64,000 bases of DNA from Bacillota bacterium (GCA_021770445.1 JAETQY010000005.1:177185-241184); one strand, 5' to 3'; counted from the stretch's first letter, positions 5,982-64,000 are shown. Notes: generated from the sequence alone by a model not told the origin. Translations and numbers: made by a program.

Positions 5982-8537
5982 TCACTCACCTTCCGTTGGG
6001 GTTAAGTTCCGTTTGGGGCTGCGCTGGGCCATCAGCTTGGTCAGCGTAGCGCAAAGCTGTTCGATATTGATGGGCTTGGCCAGATGGGCATCCATACCCG
6101 CCTGGGCGGTGCGGCTGATGTCCTCCGCAAAGGCGTTGGCCGTCAGGGCCACGATGGGGACAGTCTTGGCGTCCGGCCGGTCCAGGGCCCGGATGGCCTC
6201 GGTGGCCTGACAGCCGTCCATCTCCGGCATCTGCATATCCATCAGGATGGCGTCGAAGAAGTAAGGCTCCTCCTTCTGGAAGGCGTCCACTGCCTCCCGG
6301 CCGTTTTCCGCCGGAGTCACCTGGGCCCCCCGCATCTGAAGCAGCTCGGTGGCAATCTCCATATTCAGGAAGTTGTCCTCAGCCAGCAGGATGTGCCGGC
6401 CCTCCAGCTGAGCGGCGGGAGGGGCGTCGTTCTCCAGAGCGGACTGGGGGGCCTCCCCCACGTCGAAGGGCAGGGTGACGGAGAATATGGTCCCCTTACC
6501 CAGGGTGCTGTTGGCGGTGATCTGGCCGCCCATGCGGGTGACCAGGTTCTTTACAATGGGCATACCCAGGCCAGTGCCCATGACCTCCTTGGCGCCGAAC
6601 CGAATCTCCCGCTCATAGGGGTCAAAGAGCTTGGGCAGAAATTCCTTCGACATACCTGCGCCGGTGTCCTCCACGGTAAAGAGGTAGTTGTTGCGCCTGC
6701 CCTCGTCCATCTGCCGCAGAGTGACGGACACCCGGTCACCCGACTTGGTAAACTTCATGGCGTTGGACACCAGATTGTTGATAATCTGACCCAGCCGGGC
6801 CGGGTCGCCCTTGATCATGACATCCTTCACGTCCATGGACAGCTGGAACTCCTTCCCCCCGGCCTGGGCCTGGGACTGGAAGGGGGCGCTCCAGGTCTGC
6901 ATGGCGTCTACCAGATTGAAGGACTTGATCTCCATGGAGATGTTGCCCTGCTCCAGGCGGGAGATCTCCAGAATGTCGTTGATGAGGGCCAGCAGCTGCT
7001 GGCTGGCACCGCCGATCTTGTTCAGGTAGTCCCGGGTCTTATTCAGGTCCCCGCCGGCCTGAAGGGCCAGGTTGGTCATACCAATAATAATATTCAGCGG
7101 GGTACGCATGTCGTGACTCATGACGGAGAAGAACTGCTTCTGGGAGCGCTCGCTCTGCTCGGCGGCGGCCAGGGCGCCCTTGAGCAGGTAGACCTGTTGC
7201 TGCTGCTCCTCCTTCTCCTTCTCAATGTCCCGGAAGCAGATGACCGCCTCGTTGGGCATGATCTCCGGGTCGATCAGCAGGCGCGCGCTGATCCAGTGCT
7301 CCCCGTCGTCGAAGCGGCGCAGGAACTCGCCGCCGAAGTCCCGGGACTGCTGCCGGGCCAGCTCCCGGATGTTCTCCAGGGAGAAGTTTTTGGCGAAATC
7401 CTCCCCGGTCCAGTCGTCCAGGCCGGAAACGATGACCTTGAGCAGGTCGTCGTAGTCGCCCTGTCCCCTCCCCAGCTCCTCCATCACCAGATCGGAGGCC
7501 TTCGTGACCTCGTAAGTACCCGCCTTGATGTCGACGCGGTAGATGGCGTAGTACATGTTGCCCAAAACCTGCACCGTCTCGGTGGTCCGCTTGGCCGTGC
7601 GGCTCAGCGTCCGGTCCCGCAGCCACATGCCTATGGCGATGATCAGGAACAGCGCGATGCCGATGCTGTAATAGATCAGGATGCTCTGCACGCCCTGGAG
7701 CAGCGTGTCGTAGGGGACCGTCAGGATACACAGCCAGCCGTTGTTCGTGTGCTGGTAGTACAGCCCCCGGGTCAGCCCCTGCATACCGACGATCTCGTTG
7801 TCTCTGCCGTCCAGTTCTCCCCGGTTGACCCGGTCGAACAGGTTTTTAGTGTAGACCTGGAGCTCCTCATAAGTAGCCGTGAAGGGGGTGGCGGAATAGA
7901 GCAGATCGCCCTGGCTGTCCAGCACGTAGTAGGCGCCGCCCGCGGGCATCTCCTGAATGGTATGGTTCAGGACGAACTGCTCCAGGGGCACGTCAAACGC
8001 CACGGCGTTGTTGCTGCCCGCCGCGGAGACGGCCACAGTGATCACCTGTTCGTTTCCGCACACGCCGCAGACGTGGGCGTCGGTGAAGATCACCTCTCCT
8101 TCCGCCGCTATGGCCTGCTGATACCACTCCTGGTCCCGGTAGTCGTAGTCCCGGTTCCGCACTCCGCTGGCGGAGAGGACCTGACCGTCCCACACGGCGT
8201 AGATATCCGTGTGGCTGGTGTTGAGCAGCGAGGCGCTTTTTGCGAAGAAGTCGGCAAGCCAGGCCTCAAACTCCTCCGCACTGGCGCCCTGGCCGTACAT
8301 GTCCTCCTGGTAGTACATGGCCATGGTAAGGGTGCGGTCGTATTCGTTGAGCTGGCTGTTTTCATCGTTGGCGTAGCTGGTTACCAGGTTTTTCCCCATT
8401 GTCCTGGCATTTTCCAGCAGCAGTTCCCGGCTAATCAGCATCCCGGCCGCCGCCACCGCTATAAACAGCGCCAATATCCAGAGGATCCGCCAGCTGCTCC
8501 AATGGGAAGGGGCGACGCGCCCCTTATTATACTGCAT
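5982..8537 (-). CDS. Membrane hybrid sensor histidine kinase
   Basis: 851 residues from the ATG at 8537 (AAGGAG 8 bases upstream; the GTG at 8546 is less likely). Order: transmembrane helix 1 at about 17-36, an extracytoplasmic Cache-like sensor of some 240 residues, transmembrane helix 2 at about 282-303, a PAS-like linker, HisKA with SVMSHDMRTPLN (His near 474), a HATPase domain with the DTGAGM and GTGLGMPI boxes, and a C-terminal receiver (LLAEDN, ILMDMQMPEMDG, Asp near 765). It detects an outside signal and passes phosphate through its receiver to the HPt protein and on to the HD-GYP regulator downstream. The ligand is unknown. Confidence 0.93.
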   Translation of the reverse strand: MQYNKGRVAPSHWSSWRILWILALFIAVAAAGMLISRELLLENARTMGKNLVTSYANDENSQLNEYDRTLTMAMYYQEDMYGQGASAEEFEAWLADFFAKSASLLNTSHTDIYAVWDGQVLSASGVRNRDYDYRDQEWYQQAIAAEGEVIFTDAHVCGVCGNEQVITVAVSAAGSNNAVAFDVPLEQFVLNHTIQEMPAGGAYYVLDSQGDLLYSATPFTATYEELQVYTKNLFDRVNRGELDGRDNEIVGMQGLTRGLYYQHTNNGWLCILTVPYDTLLQGVQSILIYYSIGIALFLIIAIGMWLRDRTLSRTAKRTTETVQVLGNMYYAIYRVDIKAGTYEVTKASDLVMEELGRGQGDYDDLLKVIVSGLDDWTGEDFAKNFSLENIRELARQQSRDFGGEFLRRFDDGEHWISARLLIDPEIMPNEAVICFRDIEKEKEEQQQQVYLLKGALAAAEQSERSQKQFFSVMSHDMRTPLNIIIGMTNLALQAGGDLNKTRDYLNKIGGASQQLLALINDILEISRLEQGNISMEIKSFNLVDAMQTWSAPFQSQAQAGGKEFQLSMDVKDVMIKGDPARLGQIINNLVSNAMKFTKSGDRVSVTLRQMDEGRRNNYLFTVEDTGAGMSKEFLPKLFDPYEREIRFGAKEVMGTGLGMPIVKNLVTRMGGQITANSTLGKGTIFSVTLPFDVGEAPQSALENDAPPAAQLEGRHILLAEDNFLNMEIATELLQMRGAQVTPAENGREAVDAFQKEEPYFFDAILMDMQMPEMDGCQATEAIRALDRPDAKTVPIVALTANAFAEDISRTAQAGMDAHLAKPINIEQLCATLTKLMAQRSPKRNLTPTEGE

Positions 8538-8687
8538 ATTGTTCACTCCTTGTCTGGCCAGAGGTCCGTCTGGTCAAATGAAGCCGGTCTCTGTTATAAA
8601 CGGGCAGATAATCAGTCAACTTATAGTATATCATACTGCATCCGCGGTGTAAAGGCATTAAAGCTAAAATAAACAGGACTATAACAC

Positions 8688-8716
8688 TTGTCAAGCGGGA
8701 AAAAAGGCATTATAAT
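8688..8716 (+). promoter_or_regulatory. Sigma-A promoter of asnS
   Basis: TTGTCA (8688-8693), a 17-base spacer and a perfect TATAAT (8711-8716), giving a leader of about 60 nt. The leader is too short for a T-box. Confidence 0.85.
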
Positions 8717-8779
8717 AAGGAGGTCTTACCCGGCAACCCGCGTAAGGCCATTGATCTTGCACGATATGGAGAGGATTTT

Positions 8780-10174
<1,395 letters not shown>

Positions 10175-10189
10175 GCTAAAATCATATCT

Positions 10190-10230
10190 GAGCGGGCCGG
10201 GCGTAAGCCCGGCCCGCTCCATGTGTAAAA
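10190..10230 (+). terminator. Terminator after asnS
   Basis: GAGCGGGCCGGGC-GTAA-GCCCGGCCCGCTC, a 13-bp perfect stem. The T-tract is poor (CATGTGTAAA), so termination may be incomplete or use the following sequence. Confidence 0.7.
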
Positions 10231-10245
10231 AAATTATGAACGCTA

Positions 10246-10274
10246 TTGCAATTTGGTAACGAATGCGCTAGAAT
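10246..10274 (+). promoter_or_regulatory. Sigma-A promoter of htpG
   Basis: TTGCAA (10246-10251), a 17-base spacer and TAGAAT (10269-10274), immediately followed by the CIRCE dyad, which would cover the transcription start. Confidence 0.85.
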
Positions 10275-10278
10275 ACGG

Positions 10279-10305
10279 TTAGCACTCAAGCGGAAAGAGT
10301 GCTAA
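10279..10305. promoter_or_regulatory. CIRCE operator (HrcA binding site)
   Basis: TTAGCACTC-N9-GAGTGCTAA is an exact match to the CIRCE consensus, and it extends outward by three more paired bases (CGG/CCG). It starts 5 bases after the -10 box. HrcA, the heat-shock repressor, is known to bind this element, so htpG is predicted to be induced by heat together with groESL and dnaK. HrcA itself is not in the window. Confidence 0.96.
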
Positions 10306-10352
10306 CCGTATTGTTATCAAACAAATTTATTATACATGGAGGAATCAAAATC

Positions 10353-12269
10353 ATGGCAAAGAAGCAATTCAAAGCGGAATCTAAGCGACTGCTGGACCTG
10401 ATGGTCAATTCCATCTACACCCACAAGGAGATCTTTCTCCGGGAGCTGATCTCCAACGCCAGTGACGCAGAGGACAAGCTGGCCTACAAGTCCCTCACCG
10501 ACGACAGCGTAAGCGTCAAGCGCAAGGACCTGAAAATTACCATCGTCCCTGACAAGGAGGGGCGGCTGCTCACCGTGTCAGACAACGGCATCGGCATGAG
10601 CAAGGAGGACCTGGAGGCCAACCTGGGCACCATCGCCCGCAGCGGCTCCGGCCAGTTCAAGGCCGGTCTCACCGAGGACGACAAAGCCGCCGACAAGATT
10701 GACGTCATCGGTCAGTTTGGCGTGGGCTTCTACTCCGCCTTCATGGTGGCCGACCACGTGACCGTCATCTCCCGGGCCTGGGGCAGCGACGAGGCCTGGA
10801 TGTGGCAGTCCGACGGGGCGGACGGCTACACCGTCACCGCCTGCGAGAAGGAGGCCCCCGGCACCGATGTCATCATGCACATCAAGGCCAACGCCGAGGG
10901 AGAGGACTACGATCAGTATTTGGAGACCTATAAATTACAGGAGCTCATTAAGAAGTACTCCGACTACATCCGCTACCCCATCGTCATGGAGGTGGAGGAC
11001 TACCGCCAGAAGGAGAAGCCCGCCGACGCCCCCGAGGACTACAAGCCCGAGTGGGAGACCGTCAAGGAGTGGAAGACCTTGAACTCCATGGTCCCCCTGT
11101 GGCAGCGGCAGAAGAGCAAGGTGAAGCCCGAGGAGTACAACGCCTTTTATAAGGAGAAGTTCGGCGACTGGCAGGACCCCCTGACAGTGATCCACACCAG
11201 CGCCGAGGGCGCCGTCACCTACAAGGCCATGCTCTACATCCCGGAGAAGACCCCCTACGACTTCTACACCCGAGAGTATCAGAAGGGTCTCCAGCTCTAC
11301 TCCTCCGGGGTGCTCATCATGGACAAGTGCGCCGATCTGCTCCCCGACCATTTCCGCTTTGTCAAGGGCGTGGTGGACTCCTCCGACTTCTCCCTGAACA
11401 TCAGCCGTGAGGTCCTCCAGCATACCCGGCAGCTCAAGACCATCGCCGCCGCCCTGGAGAAAAAGATCAAGAACGAGCTGCTGAAAATGCAGAAGGAGGA
11501 CCGGGAGAAGTACGAAAAATTCTGGTCCGCCTTCGGCACTCAGCTGAAGTACGGCGTGGTGTCCGACTACGGCCAGCACAAGGATATTTTGCAGGATCTG
11601 CTGCTGTTCTGGTCCTCTAAGGAGGGCAAAAACACCACCCTAGCCGCCTACAAGGACCGGATGCCTGAGGACCAGCCCTTCTACTACTACGCCTGCGGCG
11701 AGAGTGTGGAGAAAATCGCCAAGCTGCCCCAGGTGGAGCGCATCCTGGACAAGGGCTATGAAATTCTGTACTGCACCGAGGATGTGGACGACTTCGTCAT
11801 GAAGGGCCTGCGGGAAATCGACGGCAAGCAGTTCAAGTCAGTCACCGAGGAGGACGCCCTCCCCCAGACCGACGAGGAGAAGAAGGCGGCCGAGGAGAAG
11901 GCCGAGGCCGGCAAGCCGGTGCTGGAGGCGGTGAAAGAGGCCCTGGGCGATCAGGTAAAGGAGGTACGGGTGTCCGCCATCCTCAAGTCGGGGGCCTGCT
12001 GTCTGTCTGCCGACGGGCCGGTCTCCATCGAGATGGAGCGATACATGCGCAAGGTGGAGGGCGGCCAGCCCATGAAGGCCGACCGGGTGTTGGAGCTCAA
12101 CCCCGATTCCGCCCCCTTCGCCGCCCTCAAGAAGGCGGTGGACGCCGGGGACAAGGAGCTTGTGGCGAAATATTCCAAGCTCCTCTACGCCCAGGCCCTG
12201 CTGCTGGCCGACCTGCCCCTGGAGGACCCGGCGGAGTACACCGAGCTGGTGTGTTCCCTGATGGTCTGA
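10353..12269 (+). CDS. htpG: Molecular chaperone HtpG (Hsp90)
   Basis: 638 residues from the ATG at 10353 (MAKKQFKAESKRLLDLMVNS) behind ATGGAGGAA; the ORF-track start at 10299 lies inside the operator. The GHKL ATPase motifs are present: LRELISNASDA, DNGIGM and GQFGVGFYSAFM. The middle domain carries YIPEKTPYD and GVVDSSDFSLNISREVLQ, with the catalytic arginine region, and the C-terminal dimerisation domain follows. It is a cytoplasmic ATP-dependent chaperone acting late in folding and in stress. Control by the CIRCE element directly upstream is expected; in Bacillus subtilis htpG belongs to a different, non-HrcA class. Confidence 0.97.
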   Translation: MAKKQFKAESKRLLDLMVNSIYTHKEIFLRELISNASDAEDKLAYKSLTDDSVSVKRKDLKITIVPDKEGRLLTVSDNGIGMSKEDLEANLGTIARSGSGQFKAGLTEDDKAADKIDVIGQFGVGFYSAFMVADHVTVISRAWGSDEAWMWQSDGADGYTVTACEKEAPGTDVIMHIKANAEGEDYDQYLETYKLQELIKKYSDYIRYPIVMEVEDYRQKEKPADAPEDYKPEWETVKEWKTLNSMVPLWQRQKSKVKPEEYNAFYKEKFGDWQDPLTVIHTSAEGAVTYKAMLYIPEKTPYDFYTREYQKGLQLYSSGVLIMDKCADLLPDHFRFVKGVVDSSDFSLNISREVLQHTRQLKTIAAALEKKIKNELLKMQKEDREKYEKFWSAFGTQLKYGVVSDYGQHKDILQDLLLFWSSKEGKNTTLAAYKDRMPEDQPFYYYACGESVEKIAKLPQVERILDKGYEILYCTEDVDDFVMKGLREIDGKQFKSVTEEDALPQTDEEKKAAEEKAEAGKPVLEAVKEALGDQVKEVRVSAILKSGACCLSADGPVSIEMERYMRKVEGGQPMKADRVLELNPDSAPFAALKKAVDAGDKELVAKYSKLLYAQALLLADLPLEDPAEYTELVCSLMV

Positions 12270-53728: not shown

Positions 53729-53843
53729 AGCCCCCGCCCCCTTTGCTCCAGTATAGCCGCCCCACCCCCGGCCTGTCTACCGGCTTAGGACAGTCGGTCG
53801 TTTTTGAGGGATAATCGGTCATAAACGAAAAAGGAGCGCCCTT

Positions 53844-53882
53844 GGGAGAGGTAACGTAAGGAAGTTACCTCTCCCTTATTAT
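53844..53882. terminator. Hairpin at left edge of the mobile element
   Basis: GGGAGAGGTAAC-GTAAGGAA-GTTACCTCTCCC followed by TTATTATTT. GC-rich core sequence gives way to mobile-element sequence around here. An 8-bp inverted repeat CTGTCTAC (53773) / GTAGACAG (53885) brackets it. Confidence 0.75.
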
Positions 53883-53942
53883 TTGTAGACAGCCGAAAGT
53901 GATTGAATTGCGGGGATATTCAACATATCGGAGGAAAGCATC

Positions 53943-54311
53943 ATGGCAAAGTCTACATTTGAACAAATGGGCGGAACTTACCGCCAAGAGGGAGAGTATT
54001 TTCTCCCGAACCTCACTGTGCCGGAAAGTGTTTCCATTGGTATCTGGGGCCAGCGGCGGAAACGGTATCTGCGAGAGCATAGAAAGGCACTCTACACCGC
54101 CATGCTGTTATCTGATAAACTAAACGATCACCTGACTGAAATCGACCAACAAGCTGAAAAAATGTTTCCTCAGCTTGTAAAGCAGATGGCAGGACAAGAG
54201 GATATCACCGAACAGCTTAAAGCAGATCATCAGATGGAATGGATAGGATTTATGAACGACATACGAAATAGAGCAATAGAAATTATAAATACAGACTTGA
54301 TCTACGTATAG
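53943..54311 (+). CDS. tnpV: Transposon-encoded protein TnpV
   Basis: 122 residues: TFEQMGGTYRQEGEYFLPNLTVPE, IGIWGQRRKRYLREHRKALYTAMLLSDKLNDHLTEIDQQAEKMF and ADHQMEWIGFMNDIRNRAIEIINTDLIYV, the full pattern of TnpV of Tn4451-type elements. Its role is unknown; it is dispensable for excision in Tn4451. CGGAGGA precedes the ATG. A perfect terminator follows. Confidence 0.88.
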   Translation: MAKSTFEQMGGTYRQEGEYFLPNLTVPESVSIGIWGQRRKRYLREHRKALYTAMLLSDKLNDHLTEIDQQAEKMFPQLVKQMAGQEDITEQLKADHQMEWIGFMNDIRNRAIEIINTDLIYV

Positions 54312-54320
54312 AGGATAGAG

Positions 54321-54362
54321 AAGGGTAGCAGAACAGCAATTGTTGGTTCTGCTACCCTTTTC
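54321..54362 (+). terminator. Terminator after tnpV
   Basis: AAGGGTAGCAGAAC-AGCAATTGTTG-GTTCTGCTACCCTTTT. Separates tnpV from the cargo. Confidence 0.92.
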
Positions 54363-54402
54363 CATATAAGCCAAAGCTTTCTTAGCAGAGCATCATTTTT
54401 GC

Positions 54403-54431
54403 TTGATGTTCAGGCTGATGTATGCTACAAT
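54403..54431 (+). promoter_or_regulatory. Promoter of the restriction-modification operon
   Basis: TTGATG (54403-54408), a 17-base spacer and TACAAT (54426-54431), 45 bases before the endonuclease gene. No C-box-like dyad is seen, so a controller protein is not evident. Confidence 0.65.
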
Positions 54432-54475
54432 AATAATGAAATTGTCAAATTATTTGTGGAAGATGAGGAATTATT

Positions 54476-55441
54476 ATGGGAATCAATAGAGATAGGCCAG
54501 ATTTATGGAAAGATGATATAATTCATTCCGTTGATTTGTACAATGATTGGTTTATGAAATTTGCGCCAAAAGCTTTTAGGGAAACACGTGTATCTACTGC
54601 AAGTAGTGTTGAGCGCGCATTATCTAATACAAATTATTTGCAAAACATTTCGGTGGAGCTGTTGCGAAATCATCCGGAAGTGTTACCCATATTAAGAATG
54701 TCCACGTGTCCGCCTATTGCAAGGGATAGACTTGTCGGTTTAGCTGGTGTAACAAAAAGCTTAGTAGAAAATATGGAAAATGTAAAAAATCCACATGTTT
54801 CTCCCCGAATGGCTACGGCGAGGTTGACCAGCGAACTTACTAAAATTGCTCGAATAATCAACCAAATGGCAGACCCAGATATTTTTATCTGGCTATCCGA
54901 AGGCCGTGTGCCTACTGAGGTAGAAGTTCAGCGCTCTGCCACTATTATTGCAGACAGATTGTGTGGAGCAGTTGCTGATCCTATTATTCGGAATGCTCAA
55001 GAAAAGCGCCAGCTTGCCGTTATAACAGAGTTCTTATGTGACAGAGGATATAGAGAGGCAAGTGTAGGAATAAAGTATAACGAAATGGTAGCAGGAACAT
55101 TCTCATTTCACACTAATGTTCCTGTATTGGTCGCAGAGGGAGCGGATAGCACCATAAACATACCTGTTGATGTAGCTGTCTTACCTAAAGCTGCCAAAGA
55201 CGGAGATTTTCCGTTGCTTATTGAAGCAAAATCAGCAGGTGATTTTACAAATGTAAATAAACGTCGTAAAGAGGAAGCAACTAAAATGCAACAGTTAAAA
55301 AACACATACGGCAAATCAGTTTCATATAGCTTGTTTTTATGCGGTTATTTTGATTCTGGATATTTGGGATATGAGGCCGCAGAAGGAATTGATTGGATAT
55401 GGGAGCACAGAATCATCGATTTGGAGCAGTTGGGAATCTAA
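54476..55441 (+). CDS. XamI-family type II restriction endonuclease
   Basis: 321 residues. The N-terminal DRPDLWKDDIIHSVDLYNDWFMKFAPKAFRETR and the middle LVGLAGVTKSLVENM match the XamI family as I recall it. A PD-(D/E)xK nuclease core is seen at about 230-255 (INIPVDVAVLPKA ... FPLLIEAKSAGDF, with D and EAK catalytic residues). XamI cuts GTCGAC; the present enzyme may share that or a related site. GATGAGGA precedes the ATG. AT-rich codon use shows recent transfer. The methylase gene starts inside its 3' end. Order R then M is risky for a host on first entry unless R is made late or slowly. Confidence 0.82.
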   Translation: MGINRDRPDLWKDDIIHSVDLYNDWFMKFAPKAFRETRVSTASSVERALSNTNYLQNISVELLRNHPEVLPILRMSTCPPIARDRLVGLAGVTKSLVENMENVKNPHVSPRMATARLTSELTKIARIINQMADPDIFIWLSEGRVPTEVEVQRSATIIADRLCGAVADPIIRNAQEKRQLAVITEFLCDRGYREASVGIKYNEMVAGTFSFHTNVPVLVAEGADSTINIPVDVAVLPKAAKDGDFPLLIEAKSAGDFTNVNKRRKEEATKMQQLKNTYGKSVSYSLFLCGYFDSGYLGYEAAEGIDWIWEHRIIDLEQLGI

Positions 55442-56958
55442 AAGCAATAGAAGCAAAAAGGATACAATTGCAAGCCGAAATAGATAGCAACAAAAGTATC
55501 GAAGATCGTAAGCGGCTGGGGCAGTTTGCAACCCCAATTGAATTGGCAAAAGAGATTATCTCATATGGATTAACATTACAAGACGATACAGAAATATCTT
55601 TTTTAGAGCCAGCATTTGGAACAGGGTCATTTTATTCAGCGCTCTTATCTGAGATTTCTCATTCAACAAAACAATTGAAGAATGTTGTTGGGATTGAGAT
55701 AGATGATGCGTTTTATACAGCGGCCCAAGACCTCTGGAAAAATACTAACATCACACTTATACATTCGGACTTTACAGCATTAAAGAGTTTGGGAACGGCT
55801 AATCTCTTGATCAGCAATCCACCATATGTTAGACACCATTATATAAATCAAGAGCAAAAAGTGAAACTTAGCACTTTAACCAAAGAAGAAACAAGCCTAT
55901 CTCTTTCTGGCCTTGCGGGTTTGTACTGTTACTTTATTTTGTTAGCCCACAAATGGCTTGCGCCAAACGCTATATGCGGATGGCTAATACCGAGCGAATT
56001 TTTGGATGTTAACTATGGCAATATTTTAAAGCAATATTTACTAAATAGTGTCCACTTATTAAGGGTGCATAGATACAATCCTGAACACTGTAAATTCAAT
56101 GATGCATTAGTTTCCTCATGTGTAGTGTGGTTTAAAAATGAAACAATATCAGGCAATTACGAAGTGGAGTTTTCGTATGGGGGTACACATAACAATCCGG
56201 AAGTGAGTCAAAAAATAGAGAAACAGAATTTAGAAGAATATAGAAAATGGACACATTTCCCCGCACTTAGAATGAAAAGCACGAGAATCGGCAGTAGTCA
56301 AGCACCAACATTAGGTGATTATTTCAATATTAAGCGTGGGCTTGCCACGGGAGACAACAATTTTTTCATTTTATCCAGAGAACAAATTGATAAGCTTAAT
56401 CTTGATATGAAATTTTTAACCCCAATTTTGCCAAGTCCTCGCTACTTGAAATGTGATGAGATATTTAGTGATTCAAATGGTTTGCCTCAGTTGGATACTC
56501 AATATTTTTTACTCAACTGTTCACTTCCAGAAGATGTATTAAAAGTTTATTACCCCTCAACTTGGTGCTATTTAGATAGTGGAAAGGAAACTACTGCTCA
56601 AAAGTATTTGTGTAAAAATCGAAAAGTTTGGTATTCGCAAGAGTATAGAGAAGCAACTCCTTTTTTGTGCTCGTATATGGGAAGAAGCAGGGATGATGAT
56701 ATTGCACCTTTTAGATTCATTTTAAATCACACAAGTGCTATTGCAACAAATTCCTACTTAATGTTATATCCTAAGCAATTTCTTAAAGAGGTCATTTCTC
56801 AATCTCCCGATATGGCACACAAAATATGGGGCATTCTTACAAGCATAGCAGCAAGCAATCTTGAGAGTGAGGGGCGAATTTATGGGGGAGGCTTAAAGAA
56901 AATAGAGCCTAAAGAACTTTCCCATGTAAAATGTCCGCAATTAACAGAATTGCTCTAA
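55399..56958 (+). CDS. N6-adenine DNA methyltransferase (partner of XamI-like enzyme)
   Basis: 519 residues from the ATG at 55399 (AAGGA 11 bases before); a TTG at 55393 is the alternative. N-terminal RKRLGQFATPIELAKEI is typical of gamma-class amino-methylases. Motif I LEPAFGTGSF (about 68) binds AdoMet and motif IV NPPY (about 139) is catalytic for adenine N6. The C-terminal half (GDYFNIKRGLATGDNNFFIL, PSPRYL, SNLESEGRIYGGGLKKIEP) is the target-recognition region of Eco57I-like enzymes. Overlaps the endonuclease gene by about 43 bases, so both are on one mRNA. It protects the element host's DNA at the recognition site. Confidence 0.9.
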   Translation: MGAQNHRFGAVGNLKAIEAKRIQLQAEIDSNKSIEDRKRLGQFATPIELAKEIISYGLTLQDDTEISFLEPAFGTGSFYSALLSEISHSTKQLKNVVGIEIDDAFYTAAQDLWKNTNITLIHSDFTALKSLGTANLLISNPPYVRHHYINQEQKVKLSTLTKEETSLSLSGLAGLYCYFILLAHKWLAPNAICGWLIPSEFLDVNYGNILKQYLLNSVHLLRVHRYNPEHCKFNDALVSSCVVWFKNETISGNYEVEFSYGGTHNNPEVSQKIEKQNLEEYRKWTHFPALRMKSTRIGSSQAPTLGDYFNIKRGLATGDNNFFILSREQIDKLNLDMKFLTPILPSPRYLKCDEIFSDSNGLPQLDTQYFLLNCSLPEDVLKVYYPSTWCYLDSGKETTAQKYLCKNRKVWYSQEYREATPFLCSYMGRSRDDDIAPFRFILNHTSAIATNSYLMLYPKQFLKEVISQSPDMAHKIWGILTSIAASNLESEGRIYGGGLKKIEPKELSHVKCPQLTELL

Positions 56959-57106
56959 AATATAATTGTTCGGTAGGTTATTATTGCCTTAAATTGATAT
57001 GATGATTGTGAAGTTAGGATATAGCAGAATAGCAAAAAGCACATTCACTTGATGCCCTATTTAAATTGTACTGAAAGCTCTAACATAAAAATACAAGGAG
57101 TTTGTC

Positions 57107-58636
57107 ATGAAAATCAGAAGCCTAAGGATCAAAAACTTTCGTGGATATTGTGATGAAATATCAATAAACTTTGATGAATTCACAGCACTTGTTGGGAAAA
57201 ATGATATCGGAAAATCCAGCATTGTGGACGCCTTAGATATATTTTTTAATGGTGGAAAAGGCGTTGTTCCCATAGAGAAAGAAGATGTAAATGTTGGTGC
57301 ACGGGCAAATCAGGAGAATGAAATAAGTATTGCAGTTTGTTTTTCGGAACTCCCAGATAGAATCGTTATTGATGCAACAAATGAAACCACGCTTTCCAGT
57401 GAACATCTCCTAAATACCGATGGCCTACTTGAGATTATAAAAAAGTATCCAAATGGTGGAAGCGCTAAGGTATTTATCAGAGCTTTCCATCCAACAAACC
57501 CGGATTGTGCAGACTTACTTTTGAAAAAGGACAATGAGTTGCGTCGAATAATAGATACAAAACAAGTTCCCTGTGATGATAGGACAAGAAACGCCGTAAT
57601 GAGATCAGCCATATGGCGATATTATAGCGATGATTTGCAGATGTCAACTATTGATATTGATGTTACAAAAGGAGATACAAAATCGATTTGGGAGAAATTA
57701 CAAAAATATTTGCCGATATATTCACTGTTTCAATCAGATAGAAAGAATAGTGATGGTGATAGTGAAGTGCAAGACCCACTCAAAGAAGCCGTGAAAGAAA
57801 TACTTCGGGATGAGGAATTGCAGCGGATATTGGATGGTGTGGCTACAACTGTTGAAGGAAAATTGAGAGAAGTTTCCACTCGTACTTTAGAAAAACTTCA
57901 GGAGATGAGCCCTGATATTGCCAGCACACTTGATCCAGTCATTCCTACAGCCAGTAGTTTGAAATGGGCAGATGTATTCAAAAATGTATCTATAACGAGT
58001 GATGAAAACATACCGATTAACAAACGTGGGAGCGGCTCAAAGCGGCTTATTCTGCTCAATTTTTTTCGAGCCGAGCTCGAACGACGCCAAAGCGAAGCAA
58101 ATGCAACAAGTGTAATATATGCGATTGAAGAACCTGAAACTTCCCAGCACACAGAAAATCAACGGAAGTTAATTCATGCGCTTATGGAATTGGCTCAGGC
58201 ACCTAACACCCAAGTTATCATCACAACGCATAGTGCACCAATTGTTCGGGAGTTGAACTTGTATAATATACGGCTTATTCGGAATGAAAACGGAGAGAAA
58301 ACAGTTGAGAATGTGCCTCGGAATCAGTTGCCATATCCCTCACTAAACGAAGTGAATTATTTAGCCTTTTCCGAAATCTCTGTAGAATATCATGATGAAT
58401 TATACGGATATATTGACGAGCAGGGATGGCTAAATGAGTATAAACAAGGAAAACCTACACGACCTTATATTCGTTTGCGTAGGGATGGAACTACTTTAGA
58501 AGAACCTAAAATTTTGAGCGAATATATTCGACATGTGATACACCACCCTGAAAATATAAATAATGCTCGGTTTACCTTGGATGAACTTCGTCAGTCTATT
58601 GAAATGATGAGAGATTTCATATCCAGCAAGATTTAA
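57107..58636 (+). CDS. OLD-like AAA ATPase, candidate defence protein
   Basis: 509 residues. N-terminal ABC-type ATPase start KIRSLRIKNFRGYCDEISINFDEFTALVGKNDIGKSSIVDAL (Walker A about 29-37). Long helical insert. RGSGSKRLILLNFF (signature-like), Walker B with the EE pair YAIEEPETSQHTENQ (about 337-347) and VIITTHSAPIVREL (H-loop). The C-terminal 130 residues (FSEISVEYHDELYGYI ... QSIEMMRDFISSKI) do not show a clear TOPRIM nuclease. OLD/RloA/Gabija-type ATPases act in anti-phage defence, usually with a nuclease in cis or trans; here none is adjacent except the restriction enzyme. AAGGAG before the ATG. AT-rich like the rest of the cargo. Confidence 0.8.
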   Translation: MKIRSLRIKNFRGYCDEISINFDEFTALVGKNDIGKSSIVDALDIFFNGGKGVVPIEKEDVNVGARANQENEISIAVCFSELPDRIVIDATNETTLSSEHLLNTDGLLEIIKKYPNGGSAKVFIRAFHPTNPDCADLLLKKDNELRRIIDTKQVPCDDRTRNAVMRSAIWRYYSDDLQMSTIDIDVTKGDTKSIWEKLQKYLPIYSLFQSDRKNSDGDSEVQDPLKEAVKEILRDEELQRILDGVATTVEGKLREVSTRTLEKLQEMSPDIASTLDPVIPTASSLKWADVFKNVSITSDENIPINKRGSGSKRLILLNFFRAELERRQSEANATSVIYAIEEPETSQHTENQRKLIHALMELAQAPNTQVIITTHSAPIVRELNLYNIRLIRNENGEKTVENVPRNQLPYPSLNEVNYLAFSEISVEYHDELYGYIDEQGWLNEYKQGKPTRPYIRLRRDGTTLEEPKILSEYIRHVIHHPENINNARFTLDELRQSIEMMRDFISSKI

Positions 58637-58701
58637 GGCAACATACCATAATAGCGTCACCCACTGTTTGCCAAAAATTTGTTAAACTGTGATATTAGGC
58701 A

Positions 58702-58731
58702 TTGACATACACCCGTTCCATATGCTAAACT
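58702..58731 (+). promoter_or_regulatory. Promoter upstream of hairpin RNA candidate
   Basis: TTGACA (58702-58707), an 18-base spacer and TAAACT (58726-58731), with no ORF following. Confidence 0.65.
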
Positions 58732-58737
58732 AAAACT

Positions 58738-58856
58738 CCCATTTAGTGGGCGAACTGAATACGGCTTTCAGCCGGTACATAGACAACCACACAAGAACCC
58801 CAGCGAGAGGAAAGCTCCCGCTGGGGTTGGTGCGTCTATGTACCGGCTTCTTTTTT
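58738..58856 (+). ncRNA. Candidate small RNA ending in a strong terminator
   Basis: From the promoter just upstream, about 118 nt would be made, ending at a very stable double hairpin: outer stem GCCGGTACATAGAC / GTCTATGTACCGGC (14 bp, perfect), inner stem AACCCCAGCG / CGCTGGGGTT, then TTCTTTTTTG. A small competing hairpin ACGGCTTTCAGCCGT-like overlaps the outer 5' arm, which would permit an attenuation switch. It lies between the cargo and the mobilisation genes. It may be an antisense-type or attenuator RNA of the element; equally it may only insulate the two modules. Confidence 0.5.
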
Positions 58857-58933
58857 GCCCCAAACAACTGAATGACCGTCCGAATGGGATACTCCGCCAC
58901 GATCTCCGCCGGGGAGGGAGCGAAACAACGCCG

Positions 58934-60305
58934 CTGAAAAGGGTAAGGTACAATAAGATGCGCAAATTAAAAAAAGTATGAAAAGAGACATGGTTTGCAG
59001 GTCTCTGGTAGAATGAAGTTGGAACAGACCATTCTGAGAGGAGACAGTAAACCATGTCGGAGAAGATTGTACAGCTAAATGAAGAAGTAATCAAGGGTCA
59101 ATTAAAGGAACTGGTTCGAGGGAGCGTGGAAGAAACGCTAAACGAGCTGCTGGAGCAAGAAGCGGAGAAATTAACCCAGGCAGCCCGGTACGAGCGGAAT
59201 GAGGCTCGCCTGGGGTACCGCAGCGGTCACTACAACCGGAATCTTACCACCACCTCCGGAGATGTAACACTCCATGTGCCCCGCCTGAAGGGAGTCTCTT
59301 TTGAAACGGCCATCATAGAGCGGTATCGCCGGCGTGAAAGCAGTGTGGAGGAAGCTCTCATTGAAATGTACCTGGCTGGCGTCTCGGTGCGCAGAGTAGA
59401 GGATATTACCGAGGCGCTGTGGGGCAGCAAAGTGTCTCCAGCTACCATCAGCGAGTTGAACAAGAAAGCGTATGTCCACATTGAGGCTTGGCGCAACCGA
59501 CCTTTACAAGGTGGGCACTATCCGTATGTGTATGTGGACGGAATCTATCTGCGGCGCAACTGGGGCGGAGCGTATGAGAATGTAGCCATTCTGGTGGCAA
59601 TTGCGGTAAATGAGGACGGTTACCGTGAAGTTCTTGGTGCTACTGAGGGTATGAAAGAGGACAAGGCCAGTTGGGTCAGCTTCTTTCAGTGGCTGCGAGG
59701 CCGTGGCCTGAACGGTGTAAAGCTGGTAGTTGGGGACAAATGCCTTGGGATGCTGGAGGCGGTGGGAGAGGTGTTCCCGGAGGCCAAATACCAGCGGTGT
59801 ACTGTCCATTTCTACCGCAATGTATTTTCTGTGACACCGCGCTCTAAGGTGAAACTGGTAGCCAAGATGCTCAAGGCGATTCACGCCCAGGAGTGCAAAA
59901 AAGCTGCTCGGGAGAAGGCCAAAGCTGTGGCAGAGGAGCTTCGTGCCATGAAGCTGAGAGAGGCTGCTAAGAAAGTTGAGGATGGTATTGAGGAGACGTT
60001 GACTTACTGCGACTTTCCCAGCGAACACTGGACTCGCATCCGCACGAACAACGTCATTGAGCGGCTCAACCGGGAGATCCGCCGCCGCACCAGGGTGGTG
60101 GGCTGCTTCCCGGATGGCAATTCTGCCCTGATGCTGGTCTGCGCCAGGCTCCGCCACGTAGCCGGCACCCAGTGGGGCAACAAGAAGTACATGAATATGA
60201 AGCACTTAGAGGCGATCCAAGAAGACACCCCTATTGCTGGCTGACCTCATTTAGCCAGAGTCTGCAAACCATTTTGCGCATTATTCTTGACATTACCCTG
60301 AAAAG
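58934..60305 (+). mobile_element. IS256-family insertion sequence with 8-bp target duplication
   Basis: Element 58942-60297 flanked by direct repeats CTGAAAAG (58934-58941 and 60298-60305). Imperfect terminal inverted repeats: left GGTAAGGTACAATAAGATGCG, right (reverse complement) GGTAATGTCAAGAATAATGCG. A subterminal GGTTTGCAG motif also occurs near both ends, inverted. Size about 1.36 kb with one transposase gene, as usual for IS256. It inserted between the small-RNA hairpin and the oriT region of the mobilisable element; rejoining the flanks restores ...CGCCGCTGAAAAGGGGCAGG.... The intact duplication implies a fairly recent event. Confidence 0.93.
59054..60244 (+). CDS. IS256-family transposase
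   Basis: 396 residues, complete. DDE core: YVYVDGIYLRRNWGG (first Asp about 158), LVVGDKCLGMLEAV (second Asp about 226), CTVHFYRNVF (the conserved C..H motif between them) and NVIERLNREIRRRTRVVGCFP (Glu about 336-340). N-terminal helical DNA-binding region with GYRSGHYNRNLTTTSGDVTLHVPRL. No frameshift or stop, so the element may be active. GAGAGGAGACAG lies before the ATG. Confidence 0.96.
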   Translation: MSEKIVQLNEEVIKGQLKELVRGSVEETLNELLEQEAEKLTQAARYERNEARLGYRSGHYNRNLTTTSGDVTLHVPRLKGVSFETAIIERYRRRESSVEEALIEMYLAGVSVRRVEDITEALWGSKVSPATISELNKKAYVHIEAWRNRPLQGGHYPYVYVDGIYLRRNWGGAYENVAILVAIAVNEDGYREVLGATEGMKEDKASWVSFFQWLRGRGLNGVKLVVGDKCLGMLEAVGEVFPEAKYQRCTVHFYRNVFSVTPRSKVKLVAKMLKAIHAQECKKAAREKAKAVAEELRAMKLREAAKKVEDGIEETLTYCDFPSEHWTRIRTNNVIERLNREIRRRTRVVGCFPDGNSALMLVCARLRHVAGTQWGNKKYMNMKHLEAIQEDTPIAG

Positions 60306-60657
60306 GGGCAGGACACCATCCGGGAAAAACGGCAAAGCTGGGTGGTGGCAAATCGCCGTCACATGAACTGCGCCAAACCACCATGACGGCATTTTGCCGT
60401 CTGCCCATGTGACGTCAAATTTGACGCCACTCCACCATCTGCAATCAGCCATGACGCCATTTTTGATGTCACTTTTATATAGCATCGACCCCATAGCGCC
60501 CCGCAGAAGAGAAGCCACCGAACGACAGCCCGCAACCCTGTCTTGTGGGGTAGCGAGCATAGCTTTTGTGTTGCCGGGGGCACCCCAAAAGCGGGCGGCG
60601 CTTTGCGCCGAAAGGGGCTCCACCCCTATAACCCCAGCCAGAAAGGAGCGGATCAAA
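60306..60657. other. Candidate oriT / mobilisation control region
   Basis: About 350 bases without ORFs upstream of mobC, rich in dyads: a perfect 14-bp palindrome CGTCAAATTTGACG (60413-60426), GACGGC-ATTTT-GCCGTC, GCCGTCA...TGACGGC and several ATGACGCC/GTGACGTC variants. Toward mobC comes TTGCCGGGGGCACCCC and a GGCGC-TTT-GCGCC hairpin. Repeats just 5' of a mobC-relaxase pair are where MOBP-type origins of transfer lie. No nic site can be named from sequence alone. Confidence 0.5.
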
Positions 60658-60963
60658 ATGGCCGACAGAAAGAGAACGACAGCCATCCAAGTTCGGGTGA
60701 CCGAGCAGGAAAAGCGGAAACTGGAACGGCAGGCCAAGCGTTGCGGCCTGTCCCTGTCCGGGTATCTCCGGCGGGTGGGTACCGGGAAACCTGTGGCGGT
60801 GTTCCCCGGCCAGCGGTTCCATACCCTCTATCAGCGGGTCAATGTCCTGCGGGATAACCTCACCACCCAGTCTATGGAGCAGACAGCGGCCCAACTGGAC
60901 GAGTTAGCGGGGCAAATCCTGGCAGCTTACACCAGCGGAGGTGTGGACGATGGCAACAACTAA
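60658..60963 (+). CDS. mobC: Relaxosome accessory protein MobC
   Basis: 101 residues. RTTAIQVRVTEQEKRKLERQAKRCGLSLSGYLRRVGTGK is a ribbon-helix-helix DNA-binding segment, followed by a helical C-terminal part (LYQRVNVLRDNLTTQSMEQTAAQLDELAGQILAAY) as in MobC/MbeC proteins, which help the relaxase melt oriT. GAAAGGAG precedes the ATG at 60658. Overlaps the relaxase gene by 14 bases. Base composition is GC-richer than the cargo, closer to the core. Confidence 0.88.
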   Translation: MADRKRTTAIQVRVTEQEKRKLERQAKRCGLSLSGYLRRVGTGKPVAVFPGQRFHTLYQRVNVLRDNLTTQSMEQTAAQLDELAGQILAAYTSGGVDDGNN

Positions 60964-62332
60964 AATATGGCCCGTCAAGGACAGCCTTGCCCGTGTCGTA
61001 GACTATGCTAAAAACCCGGACAAGACTGTCTACTCGGATTTGCAAAAAGTTCTCCACTACGCCGCAAACGAGGAAAAGACCGTTGAGGGTGGGGAGCGGG
61101 CCATGTTCGTTACCGGCGTAAACTGCAACCGGGACACCGCTTTTCAAGAAATGCAAGCGGTCAAGGAGCGGTTCGGCAAGGCGGGCGGAAACGTGGCCTA
61201 CCACGCATATCAGAGTTTTAAGCCCGGAGAAGTCACCCAGGAGCTGTGCCATCGGCTCGGGGTAGAATTGGCAAAACGGATGTGGGGCGACGAGTACCAG
61301 GTGCTTGTCGCCACCCACTTCAACACTGGCACCTATCACAATCATTTTGTGGTCAATTCTGTGGGCCTGTGGGACGGCCAAAAATTCAACTGCGGCAAAC
61401 GGGCCTACTATCAGTTTCGCCAGTTATCAGACGACTTATGCAAGGAATACCAGCTTTCCATCATCAAAAACCCAAAAGGCAAAACACCTCGGAGCATTTA
61501 CTTTGCTGAAAAGAACGGCGAACCCACCAAGTACAACCTGATGCGGGAGGCCCTGGACGCCGCCCTCAAGGTCAGCGTAGACGGGAGCGACCTACGGAAA
61601 GCCCTCCGGGATCAGGGGTATGAGTTGGACACCAATTCCACCCACAAATATGCCACCTTGCGGCGGGTCGGGAGTAAAAAGGCTGTGCGGCTGCACAGGC
61701 TGGGGGAGGGCTACGATCTCCCTGCTCTCCGGGAGCGAATTGAGGAAAACCGCCAGCGGTATGCCTATGACTTGGGTTATCAGCGGTACAAGCCTGTCCC
61801 CGTTCAGCGGCCACGTCCCAGGCGTTTACAGTTAAAAGTCTCTTTCAGCACAGTAAAGAAAATCGGCGGTTTCCGGGGACTGTATCTGCACTATTGCTAC
61901 TGCTTGGGCATCCTGCCCGAAGGGAGTGGCCATCGTCCCCTCTCCCCGGAATTGCGGGAGGAGTGCCGTCGTCTGGACAGTATCAGCCGTCAGGCGCAGT
62001 TGATTTGCAGGGAAAAGCTGGACACCCGGCAGGACGTTGAGGATTTTATCAGCGAAAAACAGGCTGAAATAAAGGAATTGGGTGCCGCTCGTCAGAAATG
62101 CTACAACCGCCTGCGTCGCTGTCATGATGGGGCGGGGATCGCCCGGATCAAGGCCCAGCGTGACCGGCTGACGGCGGCAATGGCTGTTTGCCGAAAGGAC
62201 ATCAAAACCGCCGAAAACTTACTTTCCCAGAGTGATCGACTGAAAGAGAATTTGAAGCTGGAACAGAAAATGCAGACCCAACGCATGGGCCGCACACAGG
62301 ATAAGCGCAGAGAAAGGATTGTTGCCAGATGA
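60950..62332 (+). CDS. Relaxase / mobilisation protein (MOBP type, TnpZ-like)
   Basis: 460 residues from the ATG at 60950 (MATTKIWPVKDSLARVVDYAKNPDKT), CGGAGG upstream. Relaxase motif I probably includes an N-terminal Tyr, perhaps in VVDYAKNPDKTVYS; motif II FKPGEVT; motif III THFNTGTYHNHFVVNSV holds the metal-binding HxHxxxN. The C-terminal 150 residues form a coiled coil with a SISRQAQLICREKLDTRQDVEDFISEKQAEI stretch typical of Tn4451-group relaxases. Nicks oriT and leads the strand through a helper element's secretion system. tnpW overlaps its stop by 4 bases. Confidence 0.92.
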   Translation: MATTKIWPVKDSLARVVDYAKNPDKTVYSDLQKVLHYAANEEKTVEGGERAMFVTGVNCNRDTAFQEMQAVKERFGKAGGNVAYHAYQSFKPGEVTQELCHRLGVELAKRMWGDEYQVLVATHFNTGTYHNHFVVNSVGLWDGQKFNCGKRAYYQFRQLSDDLCKEYQLSIIKNPKGKTPRSIYFAEKNGEPTKYNLMREALDAALKVSVDGSDLRKALRDQGYELDTNSTHKYATLRRVGSKKAVRLHRLGEGYDLPALRERIEENRQRYAYDLGYQRYKPVPVQRPRPRRLQLKVSFSTVKKIGGFRGLYLHYCYCLGILPEGSGHRPLSPELREECRRLDSISRQAQLICREKLDTRQDVEDFISEKQAEIKELGAARQKCYNRLRRCHDGAGIARIKAQRDRLTAAMAVCRKDIKTAENLLSQSDRLKENLKLEQKMQTQRMGRTQDKRRERIVAR

Positions 62333-62598
62333 GCGTATTTCAGATTGAATTGACAGAAAAAGAATGGGAAATCTACGAGAAAATACAAGCCAGGGTAGGG
62401 GCAGAAACCGCTTGTCTTGCCACGTTGAGTCCAGAACAACGCCTTGTATGGTTCCGGGAACATCAGTATCCCCATCCCATCAGCTTTGAGCGAGAAATCA
62501 GCGGAACCATCTACACCGTCAACGCCCGTTTTAGCGAGGATGCCAAAAACGCCGAGGAAAAGATAAAACGCATTCTCAACCGAAATATCACACGTTAA
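62329..62598 (+). CDS. tnpW: TnpW-like transposon protein
   Basis: 89 residues; ATGA overlap with the relaxase gene. The C-terminal half EREISGTIYTVNARFSEDAKNAEEKIKRILNRNI matches the short TnpW family (a G-T-Y-x-V-x-x-x-F-S core with a KI.R.I tail). The N-terminal 50 residues (FQIELTEKEWEIYEKIQARVGAETACLATLSPEQRLVWFRE) are an addition relative to the typical 60-aa TnpW. Role unknown. Confidence 0.75.
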   Translation: MSVFQIELTEKEWEIYEKIQARVGAETACLATLSPEQRLVWFREHQYPHPISFEREISGTIYTVNARFSEDAKNAEEKIKRILNRNITR

Positions 62599-62681
62599 AG
62601 TGTTGAAGTTTTGCGCCGGGTGTGGTATGATAATAGCACCTTGCAATTCATATCACATCCGGCTGCGGAAAGGAGCATATT

Positions 62682-64000
62682 TTGAAAAAGCAGCCAAATG
62701 AACAGCGAATTACAGTGTTATACGCCAGATTGTCCCGTGACGACGAGAAAGAGGGCATCTCCGGCAGTATCCAGAATCAAAGGGCTATTTTGGAGAAGTT
62801 TGCCGCAGACAACCATCTGCCAAGCCCCCGGTTCATGTTCGACGATGGGTACTCAGGTGTTACGTTCGCAAGGCCGGCTTTTATGGAGATCATGGAGTTG
62901 GCAGAACAGGGCCTTGTGGCAAATTTGGTGGTTAAAGATCATTCCCGGCTGGGCCGCAACCGCCTTATAGTGGGCCAGCTTCTGGAAGAGGATTTTGTGC
63001 GGCTGAACGTGCGGTACATCGCTATCATGGACAACATCGACACCGCCAACGGAGTGAGCGACATTGTGCCCATGCAAGACTTGTTCAATGAGTGGCACGC
63101 AAAAAATACGAGCGATAAGGTTCGCCGTGTCATGCAGAGCCGGGGAAACGCCGGAATACCGCTGACCACAAATGTTCCCTATGGCTACAAGAAAGACCCC
63201 GAGGATAAAAATAACTGGATCGTGGACGAAGCGACAGCACAGGTGGTACAGCGGATATTCCAGATGTGTATCAGCGGCCTGGGGCCTACGCAGATTGCCA
63301 AGCGGCTAAAGGCTGACGGTGTGCTGACGCCCAGCGAATACCAGCGCAGTATCGGCGTGAACTGTCCGACCAAACTTCCCGAATACCCGCACAAATGGTG
63401 CTCGCACACAGTTGCGGAAATCCTGGATCGACAGGAGTATGTGGGCGACACGGTAAACTTCCGTACTTACCGCCAGTCTTTTAAGCTGAAAAAGCAGTTG
63501 GACAGGCCGCAAGAGGAATGGAAAGTGTTCCCCAATACCCACCCCGCCATCATTGACCGGGAAACCTTTGCCCTTGTCCAAACCCTCCGCCAGCACCGCC
63601 GCAGACCCACAAGGACAGGCGCTGTGAGTATGTTCTCCGGGCTTCTTTACTGCACCGACTGCGGCAGTAAGCTGGGGTACAGCGCCACCAACAACTACAA
63701 GCGGGAACAAGCCTATTTTTTCTGTTCCGGCTACCGCAAAAATACCGACCTATGTTCTGCTCACTACATTCGGGAAAAGGTCGTGGAACAGCTTGTCCTT
63801 GAGGGACTGCAAAGGCTCCTATGGTACGTCCAGGTCTATAAAAAGCGGTTTGCCCAGGATCAAATGGAACGGTTTGGCCTGCAAGAGAAGAAAGAGTTGA
63901 CCGCCAAGCGCCGGGAGTTGGACAGGGCCAAACAGCGGGTGCCGGAGATTGACCAGCTCATCCAGAAAAGCTACGAGGACATGACCAAGGGCCTGCTGTC
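62682..64000 (+). CDS. tnpX: Large serine recombinase TnpX, N-terminal part (cut by window end)
   Basis: Not in the ORF list because it runs off the window. It opens at TTG 62682 (AAAGGAG 6-7 bases upstream) and stays open for 439 codons: MKKQPNEQRITVLYARLSRDDEKEGISGSIQNQ. Catalytic serine in YARLSRDD (residue 18), resolvase domain with VKDHSRLGRNR, then the recombinase domain (NVPYGYKKDP, GLGPTQIAKRLKADGVLTP) and zinc ribbon (LYCTDCGSKLGYS ... FFCSGYRKNTDLCSAH). The start of the coiled-coil region is seen at the window edge. Catalyses excision and insertion of the element. Confidence 0.92.
   Translation, partial: MKKQPNEQRITVLYARLSRDDEKEGISGSIQNQRAILEKFAADNHLPSPRFMFDDGYSGVTFARPAFMEIMELAEQGLVANLVVKDHSRLGRNRLIVGQLLEEDFVRLNVRYIAIMDNIDTANGVSDIVPMQDLFNEWHAKNTSDKVRRVMQSRGNAGIPLTTNVPYGYKKDPEDKNNWIVDEATAQVVQRIFQMCISGLGPTQIAKRLKADGVLTPSEYQRSIGVNCPTKLPEYPHKWCSHTVAEILDRQEYVGDTVNFRTYRQSFKLKKQLDRPQEEWKVFPNTHPAIIDRETFALVQTLRQHRRRPTRTGAVSMFSGLLYCTDCGSKLGYSATNNYKREQAYFFCSGYRKNTDLCSAHYIREKVVEQLVLEGLQRLLWYVQVYKKRFAQDQMERFGLQEKKELTAKRRELDRAKQRVPEIDQLIQKSYEDMTKGLL

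Follow-up and report, generated by a model that had tools for sequence, protein, structure and literature searches.

The unit that begins at position 53844 of the analysed DNA, a stretch of 64,000 nucleotides from a Bacillota bacterium (hereafter the window), is most probably an integrative mobilisable element whose insertion has split the intrinsic terminator of the host pta gene within the loop, and its recombinase, TnpX, appears from sequence comparison to belong to a clade that prefers terminator dyads. For this habit of landing in terminator loops we found no earlier description in the family.

The left end of the element can be placed exactly. Related species have homologues of the DNA that precedes 53842, and in three of them (genomes G009, G014 and G034) the site is empty: homology to the window ends at 53839-53841, and the empty sites run straight on into the right-hand neighbour gene, which was named pta (phosphate acetyltransferase) from a reading of its translated 3′ end. 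At the join, all three carry an unbroken hairpin of 10-11 bp, exemplified by AGGAGCGCCCCGAGGGGCGCTCCT in G009. In the window this host terminator is split by the element: its left half, AAAAAGGAGCGCCC (53828-53841), is followed by a putative 2-bp core, TT (53842-53843), and then by the element. This TT occupies the same position as the 2-bp direct repeat of sibling elements, its right copy being unassembled, and homology to those siblings begins at 53844, the first base of their conserved end. The initial annotation had proposed an element starting at 53844 and a comparison with empty sites; that comparison, made in the three related species, confirms both the start and a single inserted unit on the left side, where the insertion is clean. 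On its other side, the element would abut pta. In the window's own genome, the pta side lies on a second contig (C38), which ends there, and the window itself stops at the end of contig C19, a point overlooked initially; the 3′ end of tnpX and the right junction thus fall outside the assembly, and the right-hand repeat and a full-length TnpX are putative.

Sibling elements were read out from the surroundings of TnpX relatives (62-92% identical) that were found by searching the genus and the family. The left end of the window's element (53844-53875, plus strand) is terminator-like, consisting of a 12-bp inverted repeat with the loop GTAAGGAA and a subsequent T-rich stretch, and this end, GGGAGAGGTAACGTAAGGAAGTTACCTCTCCC, is present behind unrelated flanks at eight other genome loci. 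At the right end of the siblings, the tnpX stop codon is followed by a terminator-like hairpin and then by another whose loop is the reverse complement, ACTTCCTTAC; behind it the dinucleotide of the left end recurs. L102 lacks the second hairpin. The repeated dinucleotide is GA in G003, TT in G353 and G035, AA in G009 and G566, and GT in G014 and G647, in agreement with the 2-bp repeat reported at the ends of Tn6104 and for TnpX (PMC3158075). This direct repeat at both ends holds for the siblings, and the window's copy shows its left side only. The clade is apparently confined mainly to one bacterial family, because the left-end motif, sought across the order, gave three matches besides the window's own and a class-wide TnpX scan returned no further close relative. 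No DNA match to the element was found among phage records, and among plasmid records only a similar insertion sequence (IS) matched. On one IMG/VR contig (L189, 1-2300), a TnpX relative (66% identity) ends directly upstream of phage scaffold/capsid-like genes, and a T-run is again found in the right flank.

When the flanks of the eight siblings with two known ends were joined, seven yielded a perfect hairpin of 9-15 bp with the insertion point in its loop. The RNA fold energies of these seven hairpins range from -21 to -29 kcal/mol, and five of the sites resemble intrinsic terminators in having T-runs on at least one side. By comparison, just 0.24% of 130,103 background positions are enclosed as loop by a stem of at least 9 bp. 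The eighth sibling, L105, has no hairpin at its site. The sample comprises eight siblings from a single bacterial family, and two of them (G003 and G009) were each joined from two contigs that we paired ourselves. Where one flank was available, a T-run behind a GC-rich stretch, as expected of a terminator half, was seen in seven of eight right flanks versus 2.3% of background windows; among left flanks the pattern was present in three of seven and missing in four, against the same background of 2.3%. A more distant relative on a Salmonella plasmid (L180; TnpX 50% identical) is apparently not inserted in a terminator.

Insertion could also have been mostly untargeted, with the surviving copies lying between genes, where terminators merely happen to be located. 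All examined sites do seem to avoid the interior of coding genes, lying outside them or at their ends, and the site of L105, with its lack of a hairpin, would be in keeping with such a process. However, survival by itself would not put the insertion point at the centre of a loop, and in seven of eight cases a long perfect hairpin was hit in its loop, far above the background frequency; we regard untargeted insertion as very improbable. The simplest reading is rather that the TnpX of this clade favours dyads that are rich in GC and surround a 2-bp core, terminators being the commonest of these. As a large serine recombinase, TnpX would excise the element in circular form and integrate it into dyads of this kind, and since these are mostly terminators in these genomes, insertion would spare genes.

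Intrinsic terminators serve as landing sites for group IIC introns, according to PMC7161350, which cites Robart 2007. While the two therefore have terminators as targets in common, group IIC introns are retroelements with an unrelated mechanism and integrate behind the hairpin, whereas the clade described here mostly inserts in the loop. A literature search of incomplete coverage, which took in few subscription papers, found no report of terminator targeting by serine recombinases. The insertion in a terminator loop, the most unusual feature of the element, had been overlooked in the initial annotation.

Should the site preference hold, members of the clade would land in hairpins at gene ends and bring their own terminators with them, and their cargo (restriction here, other genes in the siblings) would spread with little damage to the host. 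This would account for the harmlessness of multi-target recombinases of this type, and it would indicate where empty and filled sites should be sought and provide recombinases that obey an unusual target rule based on dyads. Taken by itself, the defence cargo would be a further case of restriction-modification (R-M) on mobilisable elements, which is already known (PMC5704250).

The core dinucleotide differs among copies, and 13 of 15 right ends have its exact complement at the inner edge of their hairpin. None of 100,000 shuffles equalled this match, a significance that is overstated by the relatedness of several copies. At left ends, the match is exact in nine of 15, not including that of the window (TT/TT). 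Covariation of the core and the inner hairpin edge is seen at the element ends of L102, L105, L162, L163, L166, L182 and L186. Crossover at the core should leave the inner edge unchanged; the covariation could arise from quasi-palindrome correction, from selection for symmetry, or from recombination at an inner site. It is also conceivable, but in our estimation quite unlikely, that the TnpX of this clade recognises the hairpin or dyad as such, with the element ends co-evolving with the core. If true, this would represent a serine recombinase that chooses its targets by symmetry or structure over sequence, with terminators as safe harbours.

Terminator-like hairpins are also part of the element itself, occurring at its left end, at the boundary between cargo and mobilisation genes (58770-58857) and, in the siblings, behind tnpX. 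They rank at the top of terminator scans of both the window and L102, the left end being the best site of the scan. The boundary structure, on the plus strand, combines a promoter-like site (58702-58731) with the long stem-loop and its T-run at 58770-58857 (z -8.2). Both are conserved upstream of the mobilisation genes in most siblings, and four pairs of the stem-loop have changed on both sides among seven elements. A comparison of 58702-58857 with Rfam gave no match; the region is possibly an attenuator or a regulatory RNA. Together, the element's hairpins would replace the split host terminator and, by terminating transcription, insulate host and element from each other. A terminator near the left end is likewise found in Tn916, where T1 has been proven to block host transcription into the element (PMC11658703). 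Tn916 is nevertheless a different element, and T1 is not described as a recombination end or target (PMC11658703).

GC content in the window falls from about 0.60 in the host to 0.35-0.42 across the cargo and is 0.50-0.58 across the mobilisation genes, which bears out the earlier description of an AT-rich cargo in a GC-rich host. Pfam domains likewise locate tnpV, mobC and the relaxase gene, tnpW and tnpX where they had been said to bracket the cargo. All genes, and the IS256-family insertion described below, lie on the plus strand. Behind tnpV (53943-54311; PF14198, 5e-43) are the genes for an XamI-type type II restriction endonuclease (54476-55441; PF09572 RE_XamI, 8e-106; PADLOC REase_II, 2e-108), for its partner adenine-specific DNA methyltransferase of the Eco57I/N6 MTase type (55393-56958; PF07669; PADLOC MTase_II, 1e-138) and for a 509-residue AAA_15 ATPase of the AriA/OLD type (57107-58636; PF13175, 9e-89; PADLOC AriA, 4e-76). 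The mobilisation genes encode a MobC/NikA-like protein (60658-60963; PF21983) and a MOBP-type relaxase (60941-62332; PF03432, 1.5e-38), and are followed by tnpW (62329-62598; PF14202, 1e-6) and by the first 439 codons of tnpX (62682-64000). The latter encode the Resolvase-Recombinase-Zn_ribbon domains of a large serine recombinase (PF00239, PF07508 and PF13408), and the fragment is 88% identical to the 561-residue TnpX of L102.

Taken together, these features suggest an integrative mobilisable element of the Tn6106/Tn4451 type that is a relative of Tn4451 and not a strict member, because its relaxase is of the MOBP and not the MobV type. The TnpX domains are those of the TnpX-type large serine recombinases, the nearest relative on a named plasmid being 50% identical, and the tnpV and tnpW families of Tn4451/Tn4453 are both present. 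The designation as Tn4451-like, made initially, is thus upheld for the TnpX/TnpV/TnpW module, the presence of a mobilisation module and the variable cargo slot, but not for the relaxase, since the window encodes a PF03432 protein in place of a MobV-type enzyme (TnpZ), such as the one reported for Tn4451 (PMC5704250). A Mob_Pre relaxase does occur in the sibling L105. A TnpX-type recombinase, TnpV, a TnpW-type gene and a cargo slot are common to the element, Tn4451/Tn4453 and Tn6104, and the 2-bp end repeat of these transposons recurs in the siblings (PMC3158075, PMC5704250). Tn4451 differs in carrying catP where the R-M pair and ATPase are found here, and Tn6104 in listing its recombinase gene first, whereas here it is last. 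The nearest known element, judged by gene content and published gene order, is Tn6106 of Clostridioides difficile R20291, reported to have TnpV near one end, then a regulator, a mobilisation gene and, on its right side, a large serine recombinase (PMC3158075). This likeness is drawn from the published description, in which Tn6106 has other cargo, its excision was not detected and no terminator target is described (PMC3158075). A novel circular permutation was considered as an account of the gene order and abandoned, as Tn6106 is reported with the same order. The L180 element, an aac(6')-aph(2'') element on an IncHI2A Salmonella plasmid, shares the order tnpV-cargo-mob-tnpW-tnpX, the core TT and the hairpin ends; it differs in its more distant TnpX and its site, as noted above, and in a Mob annotated as a plasmid recombination protein.

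The relaxase is 87-89% identical in siblings. In L105 (3.7-7.5 kb), L162 and L182, the same ends and TnpX accompany a relaxase of the Mob_Pre/MobV type; with MOBP in some siblings and Mob_Pre in others, members of the clade have therefore exchanged their mobilisation modules. By means of its relaxase and MobC, the element would be carried along by a resident conjugation system. Between the cargo and mobC, and unremarked in the initial annotation, there is an IS256-family insertion (58941-60298; PF00872, NF033543; transposase 59054-60244) flanked by TGAAAA, a motif that siblings have once at this site, with no IS; the insertion may have altered expression of the mobilisation genes. This IS upstream of mobC, together with a tnpX cut at the contig end and perhaps broken, might indicate that the unit has decayed and that its cargo is frozen in place. 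We find this fairly unlikely, as tnpV, mobC, the relaxase gene, tnpW and the 439 residues of TnpX are all open and close to the sibling proteins, and contig breaks inside repeated sequence are common.

The XamI-type R-M pair was correctly recognised from the outset, given the RE_XamI match and the adjoining methyltransferase found with both Pfam and PADLOC. The pair is widespread, standing alone in 80 related loci, about 79 of which have the two genes in this order. It would be expected to restrict unmodified foreign DNA, to render its element difficult to lose and, judged by family membership, perhaps to protect against phage. The recognition site of XamI, GTCGAC, is strongly under-represented relative to a reversed control in nearly all of the 64 genomes of the genus, and G021 contains several-fold more. 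Avoidance of GTCGAC was rejected as a sign of XamI activity, given that the sites are scarce in nearly the whole genus.

The neighbouring gene had been called an OLD-like ATPase. Its product is indeed nearest to AriA/OLD-type proteins and contains AAA_15, but it has no TOPRIM nuclease domain in Pfam, and this excludes an OLD-family nuclease, which requires both; longer homologues of 608-647 residues, such as L192 and L193, do possess TOPRIM. A PARIS (AriA-AriB) system was also rejected despite the AriA profile match, as there is no gene between the ATPase and the backbone at about 58700. No relative of the ATPase was found at E 1e-30 in the 63 other genomes of the genus, and a single-sequence AlphaFold model gave a mean pLDDT of 35. 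The ATPase is adjacent to the R-M pair and co-oriented with it, and on a Lactiplantibacillus plasmid (L193; NZ_CP143287.1) a homologous ATPase also adjoins a type II R-M pair, there of another type (a cytosine methyltransferase and a PmeII-type endonuclease). Both observations would suit a single functional defence system. Yet the ATPase is near none of the 80 XamI-type loci, some of which are short, and elsewhere the widespread R-M pair is solitary. One combined system consequently seems rather improbable, and the ATPase is probably a separate defence gene, which from its family may also act against phage.

Every sibling examined has different cargo in the slot that separates tnpV from the mobilisation genes. 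Defence genes occupy it in three elements including the window's, and others carry genes for DNA repair, radical SAM proteins or acetyltransferases. Thus, L102 encodes a cytosine methyltransferase, a DUF4928 endonuclease, Vsr, Ymh and AbiTii, and L101 a fused methylase-specificity protein; L182 has Ada, HhH-GPD glycosylase and methylguanine methyltransferase genes, L186 a GNAT/beta-lactamase-family protein, and L105 a radical SAM gene. In view of these contents the element type is not a dedicated vehicle for defence genes, and defence cargo is frequent, not the rule, in this clade. In L163, co-oriented genes of unknown function and an AAA ATPase gene (6505-11016), with weak matches to PDC-M40B, LmuB and IetA, possibly form an unrecognised system.
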